NCBI RefSeq assembly: GCF_000313135.1 | Contig: NW_004457313.1 | Span: 567,878 to 631,877, forward strand | Source of the DNA: Acanthamoeba castellanii str. Neff | Taxonomy: Eukaryota > Discosea > Longamoebia > Acanthamoebidae | Reading direction: 5' to 3' | Length of the DNA: 64,000 nt | In this document: in pieces, positions 36,000 to 64,000 of the stretch | How the letters are laid out: each line of letters starts with the position of its first letter | How positions within the stretch are numbered: position 1 is the first letter of the stretch | Notes under the pieces: generated by a model | Databases searched by the model: none | The model's input: only the letters and a program-made list of their open reading frames with translations | Told to the model about the DNA's origin: nothing | Made by a program: the position numbers and the translations under genes

Positions 36000-36170
36000 C
36001 TTGGGCTGGGTATATGTGATACTCATCACCTGTTTTGCACAACTGCACCCATCTCAACCTCCATCTACATGCCAATGATCATGACCAAGGATCACCTCTA
36101 CCAGAAATACTTGGATGCCTTGAACACCCAGCACTTCACCCATGCCAAGCTGTTGAGTCTCACTTCTGCA
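36000..36170 (+). repeat. Element-interior segment, inverted copy of 46603-46770
   Basis: The segment encoding MPMIMTKDHLYQKYLDAL is repeated in reverse complement near 46603-46690 with few changes, including the ATACTCATCACCTGTTTTGC stretch. The conserved reading frame suggests a former transposon protein, not recognised further (next residues GEHRHIKFPQAVPFHTDK). Confidence 0.7.
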
Positions 36171-36599
36171 AGATGTTCAAAAGGTGAACACAGGCACATC
36201 AAGTTCCCCCAGGCAGTGCCATTTCACACTGATAAAATCACTTTTAACTCCACACATTCCAAGTTTTTATTAAATCATTTTCATCTCAAGTCCCTCAATA
36301 TCACTTATGAGCAGCAGTCTAGCATGTCAAAATCACATGCAGATTCCAGCATCATATCTCTCATTATGATGGTATTTTAATCTGCCATTTCTCAAGATGC
36401 TCCCAACTTTGTCTTGTTCTTTTTAAATTAAAACCATTTTTGTGTTGTCTAAACCATATATATGAGGTTAAACTCACAAACAAAATCACTTTTCAAAATG
36501 ACTGGACCTCTCATTTCAAATGACCACAAGTTCTGTATGTATGGTATACCCACCTGCTGGCCTGCACCCTATCTGCCTGCAGAAAAGTGCAAGTTAAAA

Positions 36600-42079: not shown

Positions 42080-42750
42080 GTCCAACAACACGTCCAGCAT
42101 GCAATGCAAGACCAAGCTCATGTGTGTGTGCGTACTGCTGAGTGAGTTCTGGAGGTGGGTCTTGATTTCATTCCACTCCTTGATGCCCTTCTTCACATTG
42201 AACATCTGGTACTCGCCCTTTTGGTTCTCCCACTGCAACACCACAACATGCCACACATCAATGGTATGGTGGTGTGTGAGGGGGGAAAACATGGTTTTGG
42301 ATGTCAAGAGGGGGTGGGGTCATACATGTTCAGGGTGTTCAATGCCATCAAGCATGAGGGACACATGCATGTCACTGCCAGGGTTGGGGAGCATGGCATT
42401 CTCCACTTGCGCCTTGAGCTGCTCCAACTTGCACATCAGGTCCTCCCTCTCCTTGAGTGCTTGTGCTGTATTGGCAACACAAGTCAGAATGACACACATG
42501 CATGTTCAAGACACACCACACACAACACAACACAACACACAACAAGGGGCACTAACATGAGCATGTCTGTACCAATAAACCCAGCTGAATGGGTCACTGG
42601 AGAGCTGCTCTGGAGGTGGCCTATTGAAGAGAGAGACAAGATACTGGTAGGATTTCTTCATGGTCTGGGTATTGTTGAGCTCAGTGAGGGCAGAGAGGGT
42701 ATCCTTGAGGATGGTGGTATCAAGCTGAGCCAGGAGAAGAGGAAGGGGAG
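42080..42750 (-). pseudogene. Downstream remains of the GHTHKDIDQ transposon gene
   Basis: Minus-strand coding-like pieces follow the core: SVFNRPPP-like LVSLFNRPPPEQLSSDPF, a charged helix (ALKEREDLMCKLEQLKAQVE), and VWHVVVLQWENQKGEYQMF. A stop interrupts the frame after the helix, and CA-rich former introns (42490-42545) separate pieces. They probably form the C-terminal part of the gene described at 42753-43400. Confidence 0.45.
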
Positions 42751-42752
42751 AG

Positions 42753-43400
42753 TCAGAGGGACAGATGTTGAGGAAGGAGTAGGGACCCATCCAGGGTGAG
42801 GCAGAGGAATGGTAGTCCTTTATAAACATCGGAGATCAAGTGAAACATCTGCACATCATCTTCATGGCAGGAGAAGTGGAAGACATGAGGCCTGGAGGTG
42901 CCCTGAACACCACAGATATAGGGATCCATCCAGCATTTGATAGACCAGCACTTGAGAAGGAATATAGGCTCAGGGTGAAGGTGAGGTGCAGAATACCAGT
43001 CCTGCAGACCTTGCTTGAATGCCTTGACAGTCAGGACCTGTGGATTATACTTCATGCCAATCATGAAGGTTGAGAACATCTGGTCAATATCCTTGTGGGT
43101 GTGTCCCACAGGCAGGAAGGATATGGTGATTGATCAAAACACCTTGTTGAACACCAGCCAGTGGCAGTAGGCCTACTTGTTGTTATTCTCCTGGCTGCCG
43201 TTGTTGAACTGTAGGTAGAGAGTTGATGGATGTAGTCCTGCTGCAGGAACAGCCAATTGAAGGGTGAGGTGATGGTGCAGCAGAGACACTGCAAAGTTGG
43301 GACCACAGCTGAACTGGCCCTGGTGTAGGTACAGGGAGTGGTGGTGAAGGCGATGGTTGATAAATCCATGAATGCCAAGCTTGCAGAGGTCCTTCCACAC
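42753..43400 (-). pseudogene. Transposon-type gene core (DUF7869-like, GHTH..DQMFS signature)
   Basis: Reading the minus strand: KLGIHGFINH, LYLQFNNGSQENNNK, then across a TAG (43173-43175) and a TGA (43134-43136) SITISFLPVGHTHKDIDQMF. This is the 'LQlDN..eNKN ... vGHTHedIDq.Fs' signature of a domain widespread in eukaryotic mobile-element proteins, possibly RNase H-fold. The TGA is one CpG change from CGA. The two stops make it a pseudogene. It lies in CpG-poor DNA, and the frame resumes cleanly to 42753. Confidence 0.65.
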
Positions 43401-44349: not shown

Positions 44350-46602
44350 GTTGCTTTTTCCTTGTCCTTGGCCTTGCAAGCCTTCTTTGTGATTGAGCTG
44401 GGCTTCTCAGGGGTCTTGCTTCAAGCAACTTAGGGCATTGTTGGGTTCCATTTCTGAAATTGTAATTTGTTTGTTTGGATTGATTAGCATCAACAATGTG
44501 CGCATTTGGGGTGGAGAAGCTAGTTCTCTGGTGTTGTTTTGCAATGGAATGAGATGAGATGCAGAAGCTTCCAGGGGCTATTCTCATTGGCAAGGAGGTT
44601 GAGAAGAGCTGTTATTTCCAGCACATTGGTCGTCAGGATGGAAAGCAGTCTGTGTGGTGAGACAGGTTAGTAATCACACACATGAGCCTTGTTTTGAGAG
44701 CAATGAATAATGTCATACCATGTCAATTTGGATTGGTGTAACCCAGCATCTGGTGCAGCCTGTGCTGATCCCAGTGGTGAGTAGATGGTAAGCATACCCT
44801 TCTTGCTAATCTTGTACTTGTTGCCTGCCAGGTGTGCTGTTCAGTTGAGAGGTGCTTGAGGATGTGAAGCAGAATTGGATTGGAAATGAATTCCTCAGGA
44901 GGCCAAGAAGTAAGAGATGAAGGGCACTGAGATGTGACAAATGGCCCCTCTGAATTGTGTGTGACAAGAATAAAAATTGACTTTTTGTCCAGGTAAATCC
45001 CAGCAGCTGTGATTTTTCCTTTTATGGTTTCTGTGTGCTAAAAAAAACGTGTGTAGTCATTGTGTACATGTATGCAATAAATTGTACCAAAACATGTACA
45101 TGATAGAAATTGGTCATTCCAGACCTTGATCTGCATGAAATGGTGGAGTTAGTATGTGTATGGAATATGTGATTTTTTGTCACATATTTTTACACAATGA
45201 ATGCATGTACCATTGAGCTGATGACCTTCTTCCACTCAATTGCTCACTCACCTTTTTTAGGGGTCCAGAACTTGTCAGTTTCAGGGTGTCACAGTGCTGG
45301 CAGTCCTTGTCATGCATGTGGTTCTGGCCCCATGTGAGGACATGAATGTTGTCTTCCAAGACCTTGTTCTGGATATGGAGAAATGGTATTAGTCAGAGCA
45401 GGGACATCAATAAAGTATCTTAGAAAAAGTTCAGGCATGCCATCTTTGAGGACACACTGAGAGGGAGGCAGCTCTTGAACAAGCAGACACTCCATCATAA
45501 GAACGCCCATCTTGTTCATTGATGTAGAGAGAACTCTGCATCCTCTGTGGTAACCAACTGGTGAGTGCTACTCTTGGTCATTCAGTTGATGTTGATTGTT
45601 ACAGTGTTCATCTTCACATGATCTGCACAGAGGACACTATAATGGTTAACTTATCCTCCCCTCTCACCACCACATCTCTCAACTGCTCATGCATGGAGGC
45701 ATCAGACACTCATGCCTGGTTTGTCCCACACTTATACTTGATTTTTCCTGTAATTCTTAACCCTTCTTAATCAAAATTATGATGCACCAAGAAAAATACT
45801 ATTTATCATGACATCATGTAACATGTAGTATTAATTCCTATTTTATCATCACATGCACATACACAATGATTTAACTACATTTATGATATTTTCATTTTGC
45901 CACTTGTATGCACAGAGTCATCACATACACATATGCAATAACTATCCTGTCTGATATCACCTCTTTATTCTTACAGGCTTTATAACCCTTTTTTCAAAAA
46001 CAGATACATCATCCCCAACACTCACTCCAGGAGTGATTCTGAGGATCATAGTGATCTCACCATGACACTGGTACTTGAGATTCCTGTATCCCTCATTCTG
46101 GATGTGTGTAGTGATGATACTGGTCACCTGGCTACATCCAGCCAGCAGATCATGGATTTGGTGGACTGCTGTGCACCACAGCCAGCAGCAAAAGTGCTTT
46201 CAACAGTTGAGGCATTGGACTTTAATCAGATCATCACAAGTCCCTGCTGTTCCACACTCTGTCTGCGCATGTTCAATGGATCACAGATACAAGCATGCTG
46301 CATCCAATATCTCAGCATGACCCAGGCAGCTTCATGCCAATGGCTGAGGACATTGATGGAGAACCAACCACTCCACTGTTGACTCTACCATTTATGTCAT
46401 CAGGTATTGTCCATACAACAGCTCATTAGAGACAGCTTCCTCACTACACTGGTAGTGTGTTTGCAGGCAGGCGTTCATGCTTGCATATGGAATCTCTGAG
46501 AACAAAATGGCCAACTTCTCCACCATGGATACTCTTCAGACTGGAAGGACCTCCACTGATGCTAAGCTCAGGCCAGCACATGATAGAATATATTCTTATT
46601 AA
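44350..46602. other. CpG-poor DNA with no assignable gene
   Basis: About 2.2 kb with short, broken ORFs only (for example 46062-46382 plus, 45310-45519 minus). AT-rich patches near 45000-45230 and 45770-45960. Probably decayed element sequence. Confidence 0.55.
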
Positions 46603-46770
46603 TCATGGGTGAAGTGCTGGGCGTTTAAGGCATCCAAGTATTTCTGGTAGAGGTGATCCTTGGTCATGATCATTGGCATGTAGATGGAGGTTGAGTTGGG
46701 AGCATGACAGCTGTACTGGAGTAAGGGAGAAGTTGAGCAAAACAGGTGATGAGTATCATGTACACATACA
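46603..46770 (-). repeat. Inverted copy of the fold-back element interior
   Basis: Reverse complement of 36000-36170 with few differences; on the minus strand it again encodes MPMIMTKDHLYQKYLDAL. It sits just outside the copia fragment at the inversion breakpoint. Confidence 0.7.
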
Positions 46771-46808
46771 TGATAAAATTTGGTGATTTATGGTAGCTGT
46801 GAGCATGA

Positions 46809-46979
46809 TTAATGAGGATATTCTATCACATACACATACACAATAGATAAGGGGAGTAATACCATGTTGGTGTACATGGTTATCCATGTGCTGGCCTGAG
46901 CTGTAGCATCAGCGGAGGTATTGGTCTTTCTGTTGGTTCTGTAGCTGGCATCAGCATGAACCACAGGTAATAGATTGGA
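46809..46979 (-). mobile_element. Ty1/copia-like RNase H fragment, downstream piece
   Basis: On the minus strand the frame starts at the rearrangement junction and reads LLPVVHADASYRTNRKTN, matching the 'l..y.DAsya.....rkS.sG' start of copia RNase H, then becomes degenerate and stops at 46809. The matching upstream piece is at 52000-52314 on the plus strand. CpG-poor. Confidence 0.6.
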
Positions 46980-48440
46980 TGGAAGCGGGAGCACGACGAG
47001 CGGAAGAAGCAGCGCAGCAAGATCGTGTACGAGGCGGCCAAAAAGAAGGGCATGGGCGACCTGGGCAACGGTGAGACCGCCTGCCTCGACAACTTCACCC
47101 CCTTTGGCTGCGCCTCGCCCACCATCGCCCAGACGCGCCAGCACGTCCTCCACCGCCGGCCGCCGCCCTCGCCTTCCCCATCGGCGGCTGGTTCGCCCCT
47201 ACCTTGCCGTTCGGCCGTGCCGCCCAGCCCTGGCTCGCCTCTGGCCGCGCCCGTCTCAGCGTCGTCGCCCGTGGCCTCGCCGCTCGCATCCGCTCGCTAC
47301 CCCCAGTCGTCGTCGTCGTCATCCTCGTCGGCGCCGACGTCGCGCTTCATTCCCGCCACGCCCTCCAACTCCGCGCCCGCCTCGCCACTTCCGTCGATGT
47401 CGCCGACCCGCGAGAAATTGAGCAAGCTGCGTGATGTCATCATCAAGCGGAAGGACATGCTGATGCGCTCGAAGGGCAAGGAGGAGTCTTCAGAGTCCGA
47501 TGGCGACGATGACAATGGCGACGATGGCGCACACCACGCTTCGCTCATAATAGGCGAAGCACGTGACGTGCCGACTGCAACCGTGGCCGCGACGGTGTCC
47601 AGGTCGACCATTGTCGTGGGTCGTGTCGACCCCAGAGTGGCCCCGGAGCCCCAGCGAGCGCGAGCAACGTCCAAGCCAACGCCGCCGCTTCCTCCGCCGC
47701 GTCGGGTGCTGTCCAGCGACAACGAGGCGCCATCGCGCCCGGCCATCCCGCCGCTACCGCTGCTCCTCCGTGACCACCCGGCCTGGCAGGCCCGCGAAGA
47801 GGCCAAGGCCAAGACGAGGTCCACGCCCGGCCCCGCCTGCGAGACGTCGCCTCGCACCGAGCGACCGCCCGTTCCGCCGTTCCCCGCCTACCTGCACAAC
47901 AACAACAACGACATCAACGAAGGCGAGAGTGCCTCCACCAAGGTCCAGCAGAAGGTGACGACGGCGGCGGGTGTGAGCGCGATCGCTGCGCCGATGTCGC
48001 CGCCACCACCCGCACGCCCGCCGCGTCCGACGCGGCTGCAGGCCACGGCCAAGCAGCGCAGCTACTACCCGACATCGCACCGCGACCGACAGCTGGAGGT
48101 CTCCGAGCAGCTGGCGCGCTGGAATCAGTTCTACAACAGCACCTCGCGCAAGGTCCGCGACAACAACACGGAAGAAGGCGACGACGATGACGACTCGGCG
48201 GTCTCATCACCCGGGACCCGAGGCGTGGCGAGCCCGAAGCCACCAAGCACGCGCCCGCCGCCGGTGCCGCCCGCGCGCCAGACCGTCGGCGTGCCGTCGC
48301 CCACGTCATGTCCGGCCGCGATCCAGTCGTCTACTCCGTCTCCGTCGTCGTCTACTTCATCCTCGCCAACGGGATCCGCGTCGCACCCACTACGAGACCT
48401 CCAAAAACCTGAGGACGCCGAGACCACCTCCGCTCCTTGA
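46980..48440 (+). pseudogene. Detached C-terminal half of a RhoGEF (Pro-rich tail)
   Basis: Open frame of 486 codons plus stop with no start of its own at the host/CpG-poor border. It begins at a Trp codon (46980-46982) with WKREHDERKKQRSKIVYEAA, a long charged helix like the final PH-domain helix. It then has Ser/Pro-rich regions, an acidic stretch and three proline-rich SH3-type sites (RPPVPPFP, PPPPARPPRP, RPPPVPPARQ). The minus-strand RhoGEF at 52303-54273 breaks off exactly at a Trp codon in its PH domain helix. Joining the two at Trp gives a normal domain order, so I read this as its displaced C-terminus. It could still be translated from an internal Met (47025 is GTG; 47397 ATG) if transcribed. 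Confidence 0.7.
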
Positions 48441-48854
48441 TCCACCACCATCACCATCTAACCCTCTCAATTTCTTCCATCTTCCATCTTCTCATAATCA
48501 AATGCTGACATGTATAAAGACAACATATCCCATATCCCACCCCTACTTTCTCTCACCACTGGAATGTTGAGTGTGTAGGACAATGTTGACAGTCTGTCCC
48601 TGATGGAATGAGGCAGGAAGGAAGAAGGAGATGGTCCTATACTCCTGGGTTTGGCAGGTGGTGTGCTGGGAGAAAGCCTTTGCCCTGGATCTGGGGATTG
48701 AGGCTCCTCCAATCCGCGTTGGCGCAACACCCTTAATTTGACGGTGTGGCACGCTACAGACAACAACCCAAGCACACACCAACTGGGAACACACATCATT
48801 ATCTTAACCACCAACCCAACCAACCAACACCACACCAACCCGATCTTCATCAAG
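48441..48854. other. Intergenic between RhoGEF C-terminal half and GH16 gene
   Basis: About 410 bases with no supported ORF; holds a 3' end and the GH16 promoter. AC-rich just before the ATG. Confidence 0.55.
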
Positions 48855-50264
48855 ATGAAGCCCACCGCTGGCCTTCTGTGCTCTTCGTTGCTGATCGTGC
48901 TCGCCTTGGCCTGCACCGCACAGGGTGCTGGGTACTCCCTCACGTGGGAGGCCAAGGGCTCCACCTTCTTCGACAAGTTCAACTTCATCACCTACAACGA
49001 CCCCTCGCTTGGCTTCGTCAACTACGTCAACCGCACTTACGCCCAAGGCACGCACCCCAACATATCTACATGAACATGTTGATATGTCGGCATGTTGGGA
49101 TCTAACAACCCAAACGACACACAGCCAAGGGTTACATCTCGGTCAAAGCCAATGGGCAGGTGAAGCTCAAGCCCGACACCAGCAATGTGGTGGCGGCCGG
49201 GGCGCGCGGCCGCGATTCGGTGCGCCTCGAGTCCAAGACGCTGTTCAACGGAGGCGTCTTCGTGGCCGACGTGGCCCACATGCCCACCGGCTGCGGCACC
49301 TGGCCCGCCTGGTGGACCTACGGACCCAGCTGGCCTACCAACGGCGAGATCGGTACCGTGTGTGTCGTGAGTGTCGTGTGTCGTGCGTGAGGAATGCGTG
49401 GCCGGCTGACTTGTGCGCACACACAGACATCATCGAGGGGGTGAACAGAGACACGGTCAATGCTGCGACTCTCCACACCAGCGCCGGGTGTGACATGACC
49501 AGCGTCAACCAGACGCAGCTCATGACCGGGACATTCCTGGAGCCCAACTGCGACACCACCGCCGGCAATGTACGGGCGGCTCGCCAGTCCCTCTGTCTCT
49601 TCGCACACCGCTCATGAGTGATGATGATGGTGGTGATGGTGGTTTCGGTCCGTGCAGGGATGCGGCGTTGATGCGTCGGCCAACTCGTACGGCGCCCCAT
49701 TCAACACCGCGGGCGGCGGCGTCTACGCGCTCGAGTGGACCACGTGGCGGATTCGCGTGTGGTACTTTAACCGCACGCGCATTCCAGCGTACGCCAGCCT
49801 CCCCCCCGCCTCCCCCCACCACCGCTCTGACCCTCGTGTGTCGTCTGGTGTCGTCTGGTGTCGTGTGGTGTCGTGTGGTGTCGTGTGTGGGGTGGGTTAG
49901 GGACATCACGGCGGGCAATCCCAACCCGGCGGCGTGGGGCAAGCCCTTCGCCTACTTCGCCCTGGGCACCAACTGCCCGGCGTCGCACTTCCGCAACCAT
50001 ACGATGACCATCAACCTAACCTTCTGCGGTGCCTGGGCCGGCAACTCGTGGGTGTGGGGGTCCGACTCGGTCTGCGCCGCCAAGGGCACCTGCGTGGACT
50101 TTGTGCGCAAAAACCCATCGGTACCCGCCCATCATCTCTTCTTTCCCACACCGCTCCGTCAACAACCAACACCAATCATCTGCGCATGTGTGGTGTGGTG
50201 TCAGGCATTCACCGAGGCCTATTGGCTGTTCAATTCAGTGCGTGCTTACCAGTGGGCCAACTAA
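48855..50264 (+). CDS. Secreted GH16 beta-glucanase (laminarinase-like)
   Basis: Six exons (48855-49047, 49125-49352, 49427-49569, 49658-49788, 49901-50120, 50205-50264), 324 aa. Signal peptide: KPTAGLLCSSLLIVLALACT. The GH16 catalytic motif is split by an intron: GE|IDIIEGVN with Glu139 (nucleophile), Asp141 and Glu144 (acid/base). GRDSVRLESK and HMPTGCGTWPAWWTYGPSWP upstream are the usual fungal-type GH16 context, and several Asn-glycosylation sites (NRT, NQT, NLT) fit secretion. It should cut beta-1,3(4)-glucans of food microbes or of the cyst wall. Intron 1 has a GC donor (AAG^GCACGC). The gene lies inside the proposed inverted segment but is itself intact. Confidence 0.9.
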
Positions 50265-50520
50265 ACACATGAGAGACTGAGGCCATAGGCATTGGCCCTT
50301 CTCTGCTCCAGACTGTACTTCAATAAGTGTATTGACTGGTCGGAAGCGTAGTGGGCGCGGCGGTGAGGGGAGCCTCGTTAAAAACCTCTCTCAGGCGTAG
50401 AGAGGAAAAGAGTGCCCCTCTGGTGTGAGTGATCGTCTTGATGGTCGTGTGGTATCGGGTCGGTTCGTGGTCATCGTCAGTCGGCTGCGGTTCTGTCGGG
50501 AGGTGCGCTACCCTCCTAGG
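50265..50520. other. 3' flank of GH16 gene, mixed composition
   Basis: Sequence with normal CpG (GCGTAGTGGGCGCGGCGG) between the GH16 stop and the LINE-like RNase H fragment; contains GCCTCGTTAAAAACCTC. It may be the 3' end of the LINE fragment (minus strand) or UTR. Confidence 0.4.
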
Positions 50521-50900
50521 CGCCAGCTACTGCTGGCACTTTGGGGGTTGCGCTGTGCAACGTATGTTAGTCCCAGGTCACTGAGTAGGTTACATCGCGA
50601 TAGCCACATTTGGTGGCTGGCGGTGAGGAGTACTATTTGGATGTCTGGGTTCTTTTTCATTTTGTCGTTAATATGACTGTACACATGCTGGAGCTCCACA
50701 CTTTCTTTTGTGTATATGAGATTTACAATGTTGTAGAGAGTGTCTGTGTTTGGGACCATGTGGCCTGGTGGTGGTCCTGCTGCTTGTGCCTTGCTGATAG
50801 CTCCTATTGCATATTGGCTGTCTGTGAATATTCTTATTTTTATTGTTTTTGTTTGTCTGTGCTAGAACCCTGTTCAATGCTGTACAGTTTGGCATTGTTG
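50521..50900 (-). mobile_element. LINE-type retroelement RNase H fragment
   Basis: Minus-strand frames read KLYSIEQG, then after a short A-rich frameshifted stretch IFTDSQYAIGAISKAQAAG, then TLYNIVNLIYTKESVELQHV and YSHINDK. This is the RNase H order 'E..AI..G ... i.tDSq.ai ... l...~~v.l.~V.sH'. The first catalytic Asp-region is not recoverable. The frameshift near 50840 and lack of a neighbouring reverse transcriptase mark it as dead. Confidence 0.6.
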
Positions 50901-50945
50901 TTGGTTTGTTCTTGTGGTGTGTGAAGGGAGATCATGACTAGTGGT

Positions 50946-51557
50946 TTAGTGTTGAATGCTATGCTGCTGCCTGTGTTTCCTTCTTGGAGTGACCTGTTGG
51001 TAGAGATATCCATGCTCTTGTAGTTTTTGAGTGCCTTTGTGGGTTTGGGTGGAGGTGGGGTTGTTTCTCTGTGAAGTACAGTGAAACACTGGGAAGATGA
51101 TGGTCATGTTGCACTCCTTGGCTGCTGCCACAAATGATGCTATTGTGGGTAATACCAAGTGTTCATGAAAAAGGGTCAGTGACTCTTTTTTTAAGGTCAA
51201 AATGCACTTTTCTGTATGGAAAACTGTGCAAAAGTGCCATTTTTTCAGCTTTTTATGTGCAGATTGGGCCATCTCATGGGGTTGAGGGAGCTGCTTCATG
51301 GCTGTGTGCATGCTGCACCAACCGTGGCACAGTGTGTGAATGGTGAGTCTATCATGTGTGTTGGTTGTGGCATACTTCAGGGTACCATCTGTGTTGACAC
51401 CAAGCTGATTCTCATTTGTAATTTCTGGGGTGCAGTATGTGCCTGAGATTAAGCACATGCTGCTATCTCTGCTTCCCTCAGTGACAAGGGGCTCAGCATC
51501 CTGTGGGACCTGATTCATGGCTTCCAGTTCTTTGATGGTGGCGCTCTTCTCATTCAC
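50946..51557 (-). CDS. Unassigned 203-residue ORF in CpG-poor DNA
   Basis: Open minus-strand frame (SATIKELEAMNQVPQDAEPL, LTLKKESLTLFHEHLVLPTI, FVAAAKECNMTIIFPVFHCT) with plausible protein composition. No domain recognised. A second ORF (51554-51829) directly upstream may belong to it. Probably part of a mobile element. Confidence 0.35.
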   Translation of the reverse strand: MNEKSATIKELEAMNQVPQDAEPLVTEGSRDSSMCLISGTYCTPEITNENQLGVNTDGTLKYATTNTHDRLTIHTLCHGWCSMHTAMKQLPQPHEMAQSAHKKLKKWHFCTVFHTEKCILTLKKESLTLFHEHLVLPTIASFVAAAKECNMTIIFPVFHCTSQRNNPTSTQTHKGTQKLQEHGYLYQQVTPRRKHRQQHSIQH

Positions 51558-51999
51558 AAGGGCAATCTACTCATTGCTCCAATGCCACTACCCCTACATC
51601 TGACATTGCATTTGCTATACTCAATCTTGACATTTGACATCATAACCTTGGTCATGCAATGGGTGATGAGCATCAGATCAGAGAAAATAGAGTTTGAGGT
51701 GACCACCAGTGCCAACTCATGGGTGAGGGCCTCAGACTCAAGAGGCTCTGCAGGCATAAGACTAGTGTTGCAGCTGGGTGGCATGGTATTTGATGAGCCA
51801 GCTGATGAGATGTTGGTGAGGAAGGGCATTGGATTGAATGGCTGGACTGGCTCCTAGGGTGCAGGGGCTGATTCCACACTTGTTGAAAATGACATTGCAT
51901 GTGTGCATTGCACAGCCAGTGGCCATAATGGGAACATGGTAGATAGACAAGGAGTACCCTTGATCTCTCCCAGCCAAAGAAGATCCCAGACCTGGCCAC

Positions 52000-52314
52000 A
52001 GACTTAAGACTTGCTGACTGTAAGCCCCTCTGCTCTCCACTTCCCGCAGGCTGCAACCTCTCAGTTGTTGAAGTGACATTGTGCCTCCAGCTCCACTTCA
52101 GGCGAATTGTGGGATGTCTTCTCTACATTGCTCTGTTGACTTGACCAGACATTCTGTTTGCAGTCATCTACCTCTCCAGGTTTCTATGTGGGCATGACAA
52201 CAGGCACTATGAAGCTGTTGGACACATTGTTGCCTACCTTGTTGGCATGGCCAAACTGACCATTCACTACCAGCATTCCTCTGATCACACAGTCACTCTA
52301 GCTCAATTGAACTC
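52000..52314 (+). mobile_element. Ty1/copia-like RT/RNase H border fragment, upstream piece
   Basis: Plus-strand frame: LADCKPLCSPLPAG, RIVGCLLYIALLT, stop (TGA 52142-52144), PDILFAVIYLSRF, HYEAVGHIVAYLVGMAKLTI. This matches the copia pattern 'ckp..tPl ... vGsLlYla..tRPDi.~av.~lsrf...~H~.a~k.ilrYLkgT'. The TGA replaces the conserved Arg of TRPD (CGA to TGA, a CpG change). The frame runs on to the junction with the RhoGEF at about 52314. Confidence 0.7.
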
Positions 52315-54273
52315 CCAGATATCGATCCACCGCGCCTTGTCCTTGAGGCTGCCGGCGCAGAGCGTGCGGTACGAGGAGCTGTTGGCGAGGTCGTAGGTGT
52401 AGGCGCGGTCCCTCTCCTTGGTCTTGCCCACCTTGCCCTTGCCCGCCGACACCATCTGCAGCAGCGGCACTGCAATTAAACGTCAGCACGAGAAAAGGCC
52501 AGGCCAAGAAAACTATGCGCGCGTCGAGATTGGCGGGAGGGGGCGTACGAGAGGAGTCGGAGATGTCCTTGAAGACTACCTCGTGCAGGAGGAAATACTG
52601 TTTGAAGGCGTAGAGCGGACCCTGCAGCCGAACGCTCGCTCTGGCCGTGGCGGCTATGGGTGGACGCGCACTTGCATTAGCGTGCGCACACGGATAAGCT
52701 TTGCTGGGAGGCGGGTAGGTAAGTGGGTGCCTACCAGTTTTGTTTGCGTGCTGGATCTTGGCGGCGGCGCCCTTGAGCGGCTCGCAGACCAGGAGGCAGT
52801 CGCTGAACAGGAAGAGCTGCAGCGTCTTGTCGACTTGCCTCTTTTTGTTGAGCTCGGTGAAGGCGGCCTCGCCCACGAACGACCGCTTCGGATTGATCAG
52901 CTCCAACTGTAGAGCGGTGCGCGTGTGAGTTAGCACCAGTGCGTCAGCTGCGCAAGGCCACACATGAGCTCGCGTACGTTTTGAAGACCCTGGATAGTGT
53001 GTCGCAGCTCGATGATCTTGGCGATGGAGTAGGCCCTCTCCGTCGCGTCGTTGACGTGCTCAGCGATGGCTAGCAGCTTCTCCAGCGCCCTACACGGTCC
53101 ATGGGGTGAATACGGCCGTCTGTGTGTGCAACAGGTCTATCTAGAACGTGTGGGCGGCGTACAGTTCCACGCTTGCTCGGTCCTTGTGAGCGTCGGGCGT
53201 GTGCTTGAGCAGCTCCTGCAGCAGCAACGGGTACTGGCAGATGCGCTGCACCGGCTTGATCAAGAACGACTTGAGGTCCAGCTTGCGGCACTGCGGCTTG
53301 TTTTGCGCTTTCTGCATTACGGAAAGAGAGGAGGGGAAAGATCAACAAATGCACGCTCGCTGTGCGCACTAACAGTGCCACGTACGAGTATGAAGGTCTG
53401 GAACGTGGCGTTGGTGGCTTTGTTGCGTCGGATGGCGCGGAGTGCTTCGGCTTGCCGCGAGCAGAAGGTCCCGTACAGCTTCAAGTAGTCGGTCTAGTGT
53501 GGTAGAAGCAGTTAGCAGAAGAGCCGGTACGCAGTACTTCAGGTGGGCAACGTACGTGTTCGAGGAAGAGGTCGCCCATGCATACATCTTCGTCGGGAAG
53601 ACCTTGGCAGGCGTTGACCCTAACTTGCAGCGCGTCGAGGAGAGACTTGTTGATCGAGAGCAGCGTGGGAAGAGTGGAGAAGATGAGCCCCAGCTCCGTA
53701 TCGGGCAGTATTCGCCCCTTCCTCAACGGCTGCAGGTAAAGCTGTTGTGCACCAATTATTAGCGAAACGTAGCGCTTCATCTTCAATCGCTATTTACGAG
53801 TAGCGATGTGACCAGGTATGTGGAAGAGGGCGTACGTTGTTAAGAATCTCCAAGTCGCGGTAGTAGTCCTTCTCGGTCTCAACGATTTCTACGAGAACGT
53901 TCATCCTCCTTTTGGCTCGGGCCAGCTCGGGATCATCGATCTGGCTTCCTTCGCCTGGCCGTGGTGTAAGCCCCGGCTCGCACTCCTCATCCACATCTTC
54001 ATCTTCTTCGACTCCCTGCTGAGAGCTTGTCTGTCCTTCGGTTGTGTTTTCGAGATGTTTGCCGGCTGTGGCGAGCGACTTCGCTTTTCCCGCCTTTTCC
54101 CACTCCTCTTCGTCTTCGACCCAGGCCTCTCCGCTCTCCTGCTCCTCCATCTGCTTGAGCTTCTCCACGATGTCGTCGAATCGGAGGGTGATCATCCTGC
54201 CCGAGGTCTTCGACGTGAGGCAGCGCTTCTCTTCTCCCGGCGCGTGCACGGCGATCGGTATTACCGTCTCCAT
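52303..54273 (-). CDS. RhoGEF (DH-PH), N-terminal half, truncated by rearrangement
   Basis: Eight exons (54273-53836, 53741-53556, 53493-53386, 53311-53163, 53089-52978, 52906-52735, 52638-52549, 52469-52303), 473 codons plus stop, phases consistent. Acidic N-terminus, then a DH domain: [20 protein letters not shown] (CR1), [37 protein letters not shown] (CR3). A PH domain follows: [32 protein letters not shown], ending [12 protein letters not shown]. It then reads EFN and a stop that come from the adjoining copia-like DNA, so host homology ends at about 52315. DH-PH proteins load GTP on Rho/Rac GTPases. Truncation removes the end of the PH helix and the Pro-rich tail found at 46980-48440. 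Confidence 0.88.
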
Positions 54274-55047: not shown

Positions 55048-58000
55048 TTAGTCGAGGAGCGCGCGGATGACGGTGCTGACGTTCATCCGCTTGATGTCGC
55101 CGTACTTCTGGCCGGTGCCGACGAACACGATGGGCTGGCCCGTGGTGTAGACCATGGAGATGGCCGCGCCCACCTTGTCGTCGATGGTGTCAAACTTGGT
55201 GAGGATGATGCCGTCGATCTGTCGCGGCTGGGCCACGTTCGAGGGCACAAAGTCCGACAGCGCCAGGTTGAAGCCGCGGAGCTGGTCCACCGCCTCGTTA
55301 CCCACCAAGGCCTCGCCCACGAACAGGATCAAGTCGGGGTTGTTGGTGTAGACGAGCTGGAGAACCACATCATCGAAGAGAGAGAGAGAGAGAGTCAGCA
55401 CCATCAACGAATGACGTGGAGGGAAGGTCGTCAGGTGGGTAGGTCGGGCGCACCTTGGCGAGAGCTTGCATGAGACGTCGGTTGTCCTGCATTCTGCCTG
55501 CTGTATCGATCAACACCACGTCCATTCCCTTCTGTTTGGCTGTGGGTGTGTGAAAGCGTGGGTCAGCATGTGCGGCGCATTTGGTGTGATGTTGAATGAA
55601 TAGGTAGTGAACAGGGAAAGGCGTCATAATAAGGACGGTTTGTTGTCATAAAAGATCCAAAAGTGATACTGATCTAATAAATCATCGCCTTCGTCATTGA
55701 GAGAAAGAGAGTTGAGGAGTACCTTCGTAGATGCCGTGCTGGGCCACGAGTGCCGGATCCTTCTCGTAGCCTCGCTCGAAGAGGGGCACATTCAGGTTGC
55801 GCGAGTGCACTCGCAGCTGCTCCACGGCTCCAGACCTGAAGGTGTCGCAAGCAGTGATCTGAACACAAAGCAGACGAGTAGCGTGAGCAAGTCGTCACAG
55901 AGACCACACTAAAGTCGTCGAGAGGGCAATGAAAAAACGGTGGTTTCAGATTTAAAAAGCTCGATTGTGTTAATCCACATGAATTGTCGGATAGAATGCT
56001 CATCATGTACACACCGCAAAAGAAAAGAGAAACTGCTGCTGCAGACATTGAGAGGCGGGCGACGTACCATGACGTTGAGCTTGTTCTGCAGCAGGTAGTT
56101 GCACACCTTGGAAAGGTTGGTCGACTTGCCCACGCCGTTGACGCCCACGAAGGCGATGGTGTAGGGGCGGCCCTCCTTCTTGACTCGCGCCACCTCTTGC
56201 AGGATCTCGAGCCGCGACTTGGGCGTGAGAATGCGAGTGAGGGCCTCCTCGAGCGTCGTTCGCACGGCAGAGCGCACGCGCGAGAACGAGGACATCGTCT
56301 TGCCCTCGAGCGACGTGCACACGGACTCTACCAACTCGTCGGCGATCTCCGAGGCGACGTTCTTCGCGATCAGCGTCTCCCTGAACTTGCCCAAAACAGG
56401 CATGAGCTCCTCCCGTTTGAGAACCTGCGGGCCAACACGGACGCACAAAGGTTAGCGTCACACTGTGGGGTGTAGCAGTGAACATGTGACGAGTATATGG
56501 ATGTAATGTGGTGATTGACTGTGCAAGAGCTCGTAGACCGAATGGGTCATTATAACCGATTGGTGGATTGTCCTCGCTGGTGGTTGATGTAGCAAACCCC
56601 TCAAGAGTGTTTAGCGTAAAGGAGGGAAACAGCGAGCAAGAGAGTGGGTTGCTCTCTACCTACTGGCAGTATTTGCATATTGTGTGTGCGAGCGCGCGGT
56701 GATGGCATGAAACGTGCAAAAGAAGAGAAAGACGGAGGTGGTTACCCTGTTGGTGAGCCCGGAGAAAATAGAGCCGATGCTCCACGAGCTGCCGGACTTG
56801 GTCTGAGTGCCCTCATCCTCGTCATCGTCTTCTTCATCCACCGGGCTGCGCTTGTCTGTGTAACGGACAATTTAAAAGAGTATGAGCAACGCGAGAACGA
56901 AACGGTGTGTATCGTGTGAAGGCTGCGCACTCTTGAAAAAGGCGTCCCAGTCGTCGGCGTTGATGGGTTCGCTCGCATCGCCGTACTTGTCGCTGGCCTC
57001 AAACTGTGGACACAGCAAGAACAACAACCACGTTAGCACGAGAAGATGCTCATGAGCGGGGGACGCAGCAAAGCGAGATCAATAAGCACCTCTTGCTGGC
57101 CACTCTTCTCTGAGTAATCGATCTTGCCGGGGCCATCTTCCTCCCATTTGCGCGCCACCTTACCCTTCTTCTTGGTGTCAGCGGCCGCAGGAGGAGCCGC
57201 GGCAGGAACCTTCGGCTTGGGACCCTTCCGCATCGGACCGGGCGCGCCACGACCACGACCCACCGCTGTACCGATCAAAGGACAAAATTCGTAAGAATCG
57301 AAATGTAAAATCGTAGCAAGTAGCGAGCAATGAATTACCTTTCTTCTTGAGCAGCGCAGCTCTGTTGGCCATGATGGTGGCTTCGGGATCAGCAGCGGCA
57401 GACGCGCTCTCGCCAGTCGCCGAGGCATCTTCGGCTCCCGTGCCTTCATCGTCGCCTGTTTGCTCTACTTCCTCCTCCACCATCTTGTCGTCGGCTTCTC
57501 CCTCATCACCCTTGCTCTTCTTCGATGCCTTTTCCTTCTTTTCGCCCTTGGCCTTGGTGCTCTCGACCACCTCCTTGCCCCTCTTCGTGTCCTCAAAGCG
57601 GCGTTGCGCGCCTCGGGCCTGCTTGGCCTCCTGCGCCTTGGTCTCGCACTGCAGGCGAATGCGCTCGAATGGCTTGTCGAATGCCAGAGGCCCGCTCAGA
57701 TTAATTGTCTTGGCCCTGACAGCATCGCCGAAGAGAGAGCAGAACTTCTTCTTCACCAGCTCCAGCATTTCCTCGATGTAGAGCAGCTGAAGGATCTTCT
57801 GGTAGACTGCCACGAAGACCAGCTCGAGATCGTTGTGGAAGGTCCATTCGATCTTGTAGCTGCCGGCGATGAAAGATTTCTCGGCACCCTTACGCTCCTG
57901 CAGGAGGATGTCAGTGGCCATTTTATAAAATTAATACACAATTAATTAATTCAAGGACGAACCTCGAGCAGAACAGTCTGGATGAGGTCATCGATGGGGT

Positions 58001-61913: not shown

Positions 61914-64000
61914 TCAACCCAAGAGCCGCATTTCCAGAGCGGACCTGACGAGTTGGACCAGATGGGGAACGTCGACCTTGTAGTCGAGGCCGCCCGACCC
62001 TTCCATGATACCTGCGCACGGCCAGTGACCACGCATCAGTACAAACCTGCGCGCACCTACACTTCCCACTCAACTGTGCTCACCTTCTTTTGTGAAATTT
62101 GCAACCACGCCGTGGTAGGCCGACCCCAGGCGCGCAGTGGTCACCATGTTCTGTTCATAGCCTCCCACGAACTGTTTGTCGTCAAACGAGTCAGATCAAC
62201 AGTCGTGTGCGGTGGCGTGTGCGGTGCGTGTGGGCGCGTGCGATGGTGCGTGAGTAAACCAAGTATGCAAGGACGATATCAACGATACCTCAACAACGTG
62301 GGCTCCGGGCCTTGTGGCCGCCAAAAATACGAACCCTGTGGTGGTGGTGGTGGTGGTGGTGGTGGTGGTGGGCACTCTAGAAGTTAGATCTGGGCAGCGA
62401 TCGCGGCAGTGTAGGTGAAGTGCAGCCAGCCACGTACCTGCGCCGTGGGGTCCGATCACGAAGTCGGCCTGCGCGAAGAGCTCCAAGGTCTCGCGCAGAG
62501 GCGTTGTGGGGAAGTGCTCCCTGTAGTTCAATTTAACATACCTCTCTCCCGTTCGCTCGCCGCTTTCGCTCTTCGTCTTCGTTCTTTTCAGCAGCTCGGC
62601 GGGGAAAGTGGTGGCCAGGTCGACCAGTGCGGCCTTCATTTGCTCGTAGTTGACGATGAGGCGGCCTCGCCAGTGGTTGGTCCGCACGCTGACCACAATG
62701 TTGACCTCGAGCGGGTGGTCAGCCGAGTAGCCCGGGACCGGCGCCAGGGCCGGAACGCCGAAGAAGGCCTCAACCGCGCCGCGCATGGCCGGGTCGAGCA
62801 GGGAGCTCCAGGGCCGATGGCCGGGGATGGCCAGAAGGCTCCACATGCCGCTGCGCAGCTGCTGGGCGAAGCCCAGGGCCGAGGTCTCGTGGCGGGACAG
62901 CTCCGGGACGTAGTAGATCACGTCGGCCTTGACGCCCACGTCATCTCCGCCCGTCGAAAAAATGATCCGTGATCTTCACACCGCACGACACACAGAGACT
63001 ATAAGACTCACACAAGATGAGAGCGAAGGAGGAAGGGGCGTTACTTGGAGATGTTGCAGAGCTGGAGGAAGTGGTCGCCGAAGCTGCCGTCCCAATCGTG
63101 GGGGTTGGGAGAACCGAAGAGGAAGATGTGGATGTCGGGGTGCTGCTGGAGGTAGGGCAGCAGGGCGAAGAGGCGGTAGTACTGGTCCTGCACCATGTGA
63201 TAGAACATATCCTGGTGCAGGTGGTAGACGACCGCCACCTCCCGCACCTCCACCAGCTGTGGAATTGCCTCCCTATTGCACGCCAAATACTTCACAAAAT
63301 AAAAATAAATAAGAATTGTCAAATAACAACAAATTTAATTTGGATAGAATAAATAAATAAGAACAAAAAAAAACACAAATGTCAACAAAATTGTCGTGTA
63401 GTACCACCTACCTGGTACGTGGAGGGGAATCCGGCCTCGTTGGCGTCGCGGTTGAGAGTCTCCTCGACAAAGGCACCGGGGATGAAGACGTCGCGGGAGA
63501 TGATGCTGCCGCGCGCGGTCACGAAGCCGTCCAGCACCACGCCCACCTGCGCGAGGCCAGCGTTGTCGGGCATCTTGCGCAGCCGCTTGACCTCCTCCTC
63601 CCGGCCCTCCGCCGCGGCGTTCATGACCGATCGCTCGGCGTAGTGGTGGCGCACGGCCTCGGCCGAGGGCACGAAGTCCGGCGGGACGTAGGTGAGGTCG
63701 TAGAGCTCCGTCAGCGATCGGTCGGTCCAGAGCGCGCAGGCCGGGTCGAAGTGGTCGCAGGTGAGCACCTGGAGGCCATCGGCCGAAATCGTCGGCGAAA
63801 CCTCCTTGTCGAAGAGCCACGCCAGGCTGCGTGTCTGATCCGACTGTGTGAATGACACGACACGACACACGGTACGGCATACGACACGACACGACACGAC
63901 ACGACACGACACGACACGACACACGATGCACACGACACACACAAAACAAGAAAAGGTGGCGGAGTTTAACATTTCCGCGGCCGGTGCCTGGCACTCGGAG
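61914..64000 (-). CDS. GT61-family glycosyltransferase (EOGT-like), 5' partial
   Basis: The gene enters from the right edge. Resolved exons: 63843-63412, 63256-63045, 62973-62438, 62335-62289, 62171-62085, 62011-61914; the exon beyond 63950 is cut and its phase unknown. Seen: SIISRDVFIPGAFVEETLNR, LVEVREVAVVYHLHQDMFYH, NYREHFPTTPLRETL, and the glycosyltransferase core FAQADFVIGPHGAGFVFLAA followed by PGAHVVE, joined across an intron. This 'vigpHGAgl.n..f..pg..viE' pattern is typical of GT61/EOGT-type enzymes that add xylose or GlcNAc to glycoproteins in the ER/Golgi. The short last exons read SAYHGVVANF and DVPHLVQLVRSALEM. Confidence 0.82.
62339..62371. repeat. (GGT)n trinucleotide array at an intron 3' end
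   Basis: About ten GGT units on the plus strand, i.e. (CCA)n on the gene strand, directly before the acceptor of the 62335-62289 exon of the GT61 gene; it takes the place of a pyrimidine tract. Confidence 0.85.
63856..63922. repeat. (ACGAC)n pentanucleotide array in the GT61 intron
   Basis: Tandem ACGAC units, about nine uninterrupted, inside the intron upstream of the exon that begins at 63843. Confidence 0.85.

Follow-up and report, generated by a model that had tools for sequence, protein, structure and literature searches.

In a 64,000-nucleotide stretch of the genome of Acanthamoeba castellanii str. Neff (positions 567878-631877 of contig NW_004457313.1; hereafter, the window), a RhoGEF gene is found as two halves on opposite strands, and two pieces of a copia-type retroelement relic, likewise on opposite strands, abut these halves at the same two points. 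In keeping with the genus, a profilin from this genome matches PDB entry 1f2k, Acanthamoeba profilin II, with 262 bits over 125 residues. We describe the gene halves, the relic and the two junctions, and we weigh the inversion that would account for them.

The two halves of a RhoGEF gene

The N-terminal half occupies 52315..54273 on the minus strand, where eight exons, spliced by hand from 54273 down to 52315, encode 475 residues up to the break and end in ..KARWIDIW. It carries a DH (RhoGEF) domain matched over profile positions 1-180 of 180 (PF00621, E 9e-53) and a PH-type match (PF22697, E 8.5e-5) that falls under its curated cut-off. In a structural model, strands and then a helix follow the DH domain, in line with a PH domain, with parts at low confidence. 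The order, DH and then PH, is that of a RhoGEF protein. The C-terminal half, at 46983..48440 on the plus strand, begins with a conserved charged helix and continues into a proline-rich tail; its stop codon lies at 48438-48440, its earliest in-frame ATG is found only at 47052, and no Pfam match was obtained for the plus-strand frame 46974-48437.

Using as the query both window halves read through as one protein, we found P0001, a protein of 965 residues with 98% identity and 100% query coverage (seven member sequences). Placed on the window with tblastn, P0001 is colinear with both halves, its residues 1-475 falling on the minus strand and ending at 52315 and its residues 479-965 falling on the plus strand at 46983-48437. 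In the N-terminal half, 470 of the 475 columns are identical, and the remaining five form a gap that stems from the exon 7 acceptor of the hand model, which is misplaced and which P0001 puts at about 52653. In the C-terminal half, 480 of 488 columns are identical, and the differences are four substitutions plus four gap positions within residue runs. This agreement bears out a reading made earlier from the nucleotide sequence alone (the sequence-only reading), in which the plus-strand open reading frame beginning at about 46980 was taken for the missing RhoGEF C terminus. P0001 itself probably derives from a transcript, since its exons stand without introns on a 3425-base contig.

A search with the C-terminal half alone found two proteins, P0110 and P0111, and these are also the only matches of the proline-rich tail alone among proteins of its size range. 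P0110 begins within the tail and is uninformative on the join. P0111, a more divergent relative, crosses the join as ..SLKDKTKWLETW-AKA-KRQHEERKK... Against the whole assembly (38.4 megabases in 250 contigs), P0111 has three matches (31/31 candidates scored), none of which lies outside the two gene halves of this window. A minus-strand match at the right break takes in residues 1-48, and two plus-strand matches at the left break take in residues 51-243 and 239-403, colinear with the C-terminal half from residue 51. These alignments show the RhoGEF gene whole in two relatives and cut in the window, with the uninverted arrangement of the gene seen at the protein level only, in P0001 and P0111. 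The check that the sequence-only reading had suggested, for an orthologue ending naturally after the PH domain, found no close one; P0001 and P0111, the close relatives spanning the break, both continue beyond it. Among 39 proteins found with the N-terminal half at E ≤0.001, the best by E-value is 29% identical over half of the query; the candidates in this search were proteins of about 263-836 residues, so P0001 could not appear.

Queries over each break and with each gene half recovered no second copy of the junctions or of the halves in the assembly. An intact second allele was sought there as well and was not found, the sole other match being 88 base pairs (bp) at 75% in C133, at a site that also matches the RhoGEF family. 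With 150 of 211 candidates scored, at least 138 stretches of the genome match RhoGEF, so further RhoGEF genes exist.

The copia-type relic and the joins

The relic that abuts the gene halves measures about 420 bp. Its larger piece, at 51953..52312 on the plus strand, corresponds to the end of a reverse transcriptase and contains an in-frame TGA at 52142-52144; its smaller piece, at 46920..46973 on the minus strand, corresponds to the start of an RNase H and meets another repeat at 46919. Both pieces were matched by L015, an open reading frame from the same genome: residues 33-154 align to 51953-52312 on the plus strand (50%, E 1.4e-30 against the window), where the alignment halts at the right break, and residues 160-179 correspond to 46973-46914 on the minus strand with matches at 10 of 20 positions, the final six bases there belonging to the adjoining repeat. 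The copia score of 44 for 46917-46990 was reached by none of 5000 shuffles and by 2 of 5114 window placements, one of which overlaps 46917-46990 while the other is a simple repeat at 63826. That repeat (63826-63920), short and of the ACGAC type, has its copia-like score by chance. Elsewhere in the window, no further copia sequence with E <0.06 was found.

With respect to the family, reverse transcriptase runs into RNase H in all four of the genomic relatives counted (L015, L017, L019, and L020), two of which have stops; the count was drawn from eight other genomic copia matches, with the minus-strand matches L016, L018, L021, and L022 left out. L030, another copy of the family, has an RVT_2 match (E 7.8e-42). 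Through the L015 alignments, the copia relic is shown to be split at the same two points as the RhoGEF gene. The sequence-only reading had spoken of a split copia element, of which the split stands at these points and the element was overstated, given a dead relic with an in-frame TGA. Probably, the relic was already inactive when the flip occurred.

At the left junction (46974..46982), the copia-like match extends to 46973 and the gene match starts from 46983, with nine bases between them that have no certain assignment; at the right junction (52313..52314), the copia-like match extends to 52312 and the gene match stands at 52315, with two bases in between. The break positions proposed in the sequence-only reading, 46980 and 52314, agree with these within about 3 bp. 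On the gene side, at most one base per junction is ambiguous, while the copia side is not resolvable to the base. GC content steps from 0.48 to 0.63 at one break and from 0.47 to 0.66 at the other.

Between the halves, P0001 has the residues GKV and P0111 the residues AKA, three in each case that the window does not have. On the right side of the join, TGG and at most one further G are retained; on the left side, no more than one G precedes AAG. The gene thus lacks 7-9 bp. Because these three residues are missing at the join, the TGG at 46980-46982 is not the Trp codon of the gene, with at most its last G being gene derived. Beyond the break, the minus-strand frame (52303..52314) reads GAG TTC AAT TGA, that is, EFN and a stop (TGA at 52305-52303), and of these bases at most 52314 is gene derived. 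The minus-strand RhoGEF had been read as ending at a Trp codon and running into copia-like DNA; the residue match does end at 52315, but the frame continues through EFN to the TGA.

The TGG/GGA overlap of 3 bp, which had been interpreted as microhomology or as the trace of a staggered break, is rejected, since P0001 and P0111 hold three further residues at the join, consistent with loss rather than duplication. No short duplication or shared bases, as in a staggered-break or microhomology inversion, were found at the joins, where three codons are missing relative to the two relatives. Small losses of bases are common after end joining. Inverted repeats flanking the breaks were sought, and none was convincing: the strongest inverted match between the two break regions measures 21 bp at 81% (E 0.62) when 600 bp are considered and 29 bp at 79% (E 0.32) when 1500 bp are considered. 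An inversion driven by repeats is disfavored on this ground.

A probable single inversion and its alternatives

Each junction joins halves whose partners sit, in opposite orientation, at the other junction, and with P0001 and P0111 aligning as they do, chance is excluded as the source of this pattern. We consider it very probable that the arrangement arose through one two-break inversion of about 5.33 kilobases (kb), with breaks in the RhoGEF gene and in an old copia-type relic and with end joining at the cost of 7-9 bp of the gene. The sequence-only reading had likewise proposed a single inversion of RhoGEF and copia-type sequence, which P0001 and P0111 now support for the gene and L015 for the relic. 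In this scenario, one break would have cut the final helix of the PH domain, in a RhoGEF gene that is single in the assembly, the other would have fallen inside the old relic downstream of that gene, and the segment between them would have been rejoined in reverse. With no convincing inverted repeat flanking the breaks, end-to-end joining of two breaks is the best fit, and we infer double-strand breaks and nonhomologous end joining as the cause. Since both gene halves are still open and nearly identical to P0001, the event would be recent. It looks like an ordinary type of mutation in a well-resolved case, a recent local accident and not a new mechanism.

Several points weigh against this inversion or parts of it. 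P0001 and P0111 come without a named source, and the recent date is drawn from protein identity alone. With low-complexity filtering off, the proline-rich tails weakly match other sites in the window (21-40% identity), mostly at 20-27 kb, which we take to be compositional. No Pfam match supporting the copia label (RVT_2 or RNase H) was found for the window pieces or for L015, the label coming from L030, and the left copia piece has just 54 bp outside the adjoining repeat. Furthermore, a multi-copy repeat starts about 60 bp to the left of the left break, leaving room for an assembly problem.

A real inversion carried by some chromosome copies only, with the intact copies collapsed out of the assembly, is a serious possibility, although not one that we would expect to prove correct. 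High polyploidy and aneuploidy are ascribed to the genus in excerpts of a recent study (PMC12210455), and a nearly identical intact protein exists in P0001, possibly from the same strain; the assembly, however, contains one copy of each half. With respect to structure, such a partial-copy inversion is compatible with the two-break inversion proposed above, so that our confidences in the two overlap.

Whether the segment could have been flipped in contig building, with the true chromosome holding an intact gene, has to be asked because of the multi-copy repeat by the left break and because the junctions are read from one assembly of the strain. We regard such an error as unlikely. Inverted repeats at the two ends are usually required for an assembly flip, yet none was found at the breaks, and the break sequences are single in the assembly; moreover, a pure flip retains every base, whereas the three residues of both relatives are gone. 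In favor of an error, the excerpts cited above (PMC12210455, 2025) mention unresolved misassemblies in the assembly of strain C3 of this polyploid and aneuploid genus.

Two or more events, or a single replication-based template-switch rearrangement, would accommodate the finding that the DNA by the left break is itself rearranged (46604-46919, with a 35-bp inverted repeat) and the presence of two 5-bp inverted matches (GGGAG and TGGAT) less than 30 bases from the breaks and out of register. Such a history seems quite unlikely to us, as both pairs of halves are explained by one inversion, and identity between the repeat copies and the window is about 85-91% in the blocks beside the break, so that the damage there may predate the split of the gene. 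Recombination between inverted transposon copies is highly improbable, for although transposon sequence lies on one side of each junction, the breaks have no convincing inverted repeat pair, and each junction has as one partner gene sequence that is single in the assembly.

Neighboring DNA, consequences, and known systems

The putatively inverted segment, 46983..52313, contains the RhoGEF C-terminal half, an intact-looking gene, retroelement relics, and the larger copia piece. The gene (48855..50264, plus strand) was spliced by hand into an open frame of six exons and 324 residues, with a signal-like N terminus by eye and a first intron that would need a GC donor; it has no Pfam match at E 0.01 and is GH16-like by eye only, with a GEIDIIEG motif. 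At 50511-50861, on the minus strand, lies an RNase H-like relic, perhaps that of another retroelement (PF00075, E 2.4e-4, below the cut-off).

To the left, the multi-copy repeat occurs in rearranged order at 46549-46919 and 36044-36208. Its fragment at 46604-46919 has an order unlike that in the copies compared and ends flush with the copia relic, and the 35-bp inverted repeat of this region lies at 46549-46582 and 46885-46919. Elsewhere in the genome, a further 15 stretches match the repeat adjoining at 46919; 8 of these span 187-220 of 220 bases, and the others are shorter. On the minus strand at 42756-43133, within the same repeat-rich stretch, is a DUF7869 domain (PF25273, E 1.4e-18). Of the seven copies compared, five contain all or part of 42558-43390, and each of these matches ends at 43390. 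On the other side, 55051-56451 on the minus strand holds an SRP54-type GTPase gene, a relative of the signal recognition particle (SRP) receptor or of SRP54.

The model of P0001 (15 sequences aligned) has a mean predicted local distance difference test score (pLDDT) of 57.6, with blocks 461-500 at 85-88. A single helix predicted at 465-499 (35 residues) closes the PH-type domain, and residue 475, with which the N-terminal half ends, is the eleventh in that helix; in the model, the break lies inside the closing helix. The N-terminal half, with its own upstream region, could make a DH-PH protein of 478 residues ending in WEFN, and the tail half would be an orphan without the gene's own start. 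The tail comprises a break-adjacent stretch that is conserved in P0111, proline-rich stretches, and helices predicted at 621-639 and 844-870 with low confidence in the P0001 model. As for effects on the cell, which we infer, the inversion might be a polymorphism beside intact copies in one polyploid nucleus, the inverted allele giving a tail-less DH-PH factor with altered regulation and actin signaling; we offer this as speculation that is unlikely to hold.

No title in the literature searched treats an inversion at this RhoGEF gene for Acanthamoeba. The locus would provide a near-base-level example of a gene cut by a microinversion in Acanthamoeba, a genus described as polyploid and aneuploid, where intact copies could mask changes of this kind and let them persist. 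If the inversion is true, it offers a marker for counting the copies of each arrangement per nucleus and a natural deletion of a RhoGEF tail; an assembly error would instead caution against 5-kb flips in assemblies of this sort. In either case, a gene model is supplied for a locus that an annotation could list as two genes. The interest lies in a precise case, countable in a polyploid, and the mechanism is not new.

Excerpts of earlier work name two mechanisms for inversions, with breaks at repetitive and at nonhomologous sequences, respectively (PMC6861252). The locus resembles two-break inversions joined at nonhomologous sequences in that the flanks are reciprocally exchanged, the breaks have no repeats, and the loss is small; it differs in being very small (5.3 kb), in belonging to an amoeba, and in having one break in a coding exon, so that a gene is cut. 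The staggered-break inversions of Drosophila also have nonhomologous breaks. Inversions of that kind are marked by duplications, whereas here duplications are absent and bases are lost. With respect to the protein, the likeness is to DH-PH exchange factors such as intersectin, with a whole-length RhoGEF domain whose best solved relative by sequence is 1ki1 (E 8e-33); in contrast to these factors, the RhoGEF described here has its proline-rich tail severed.

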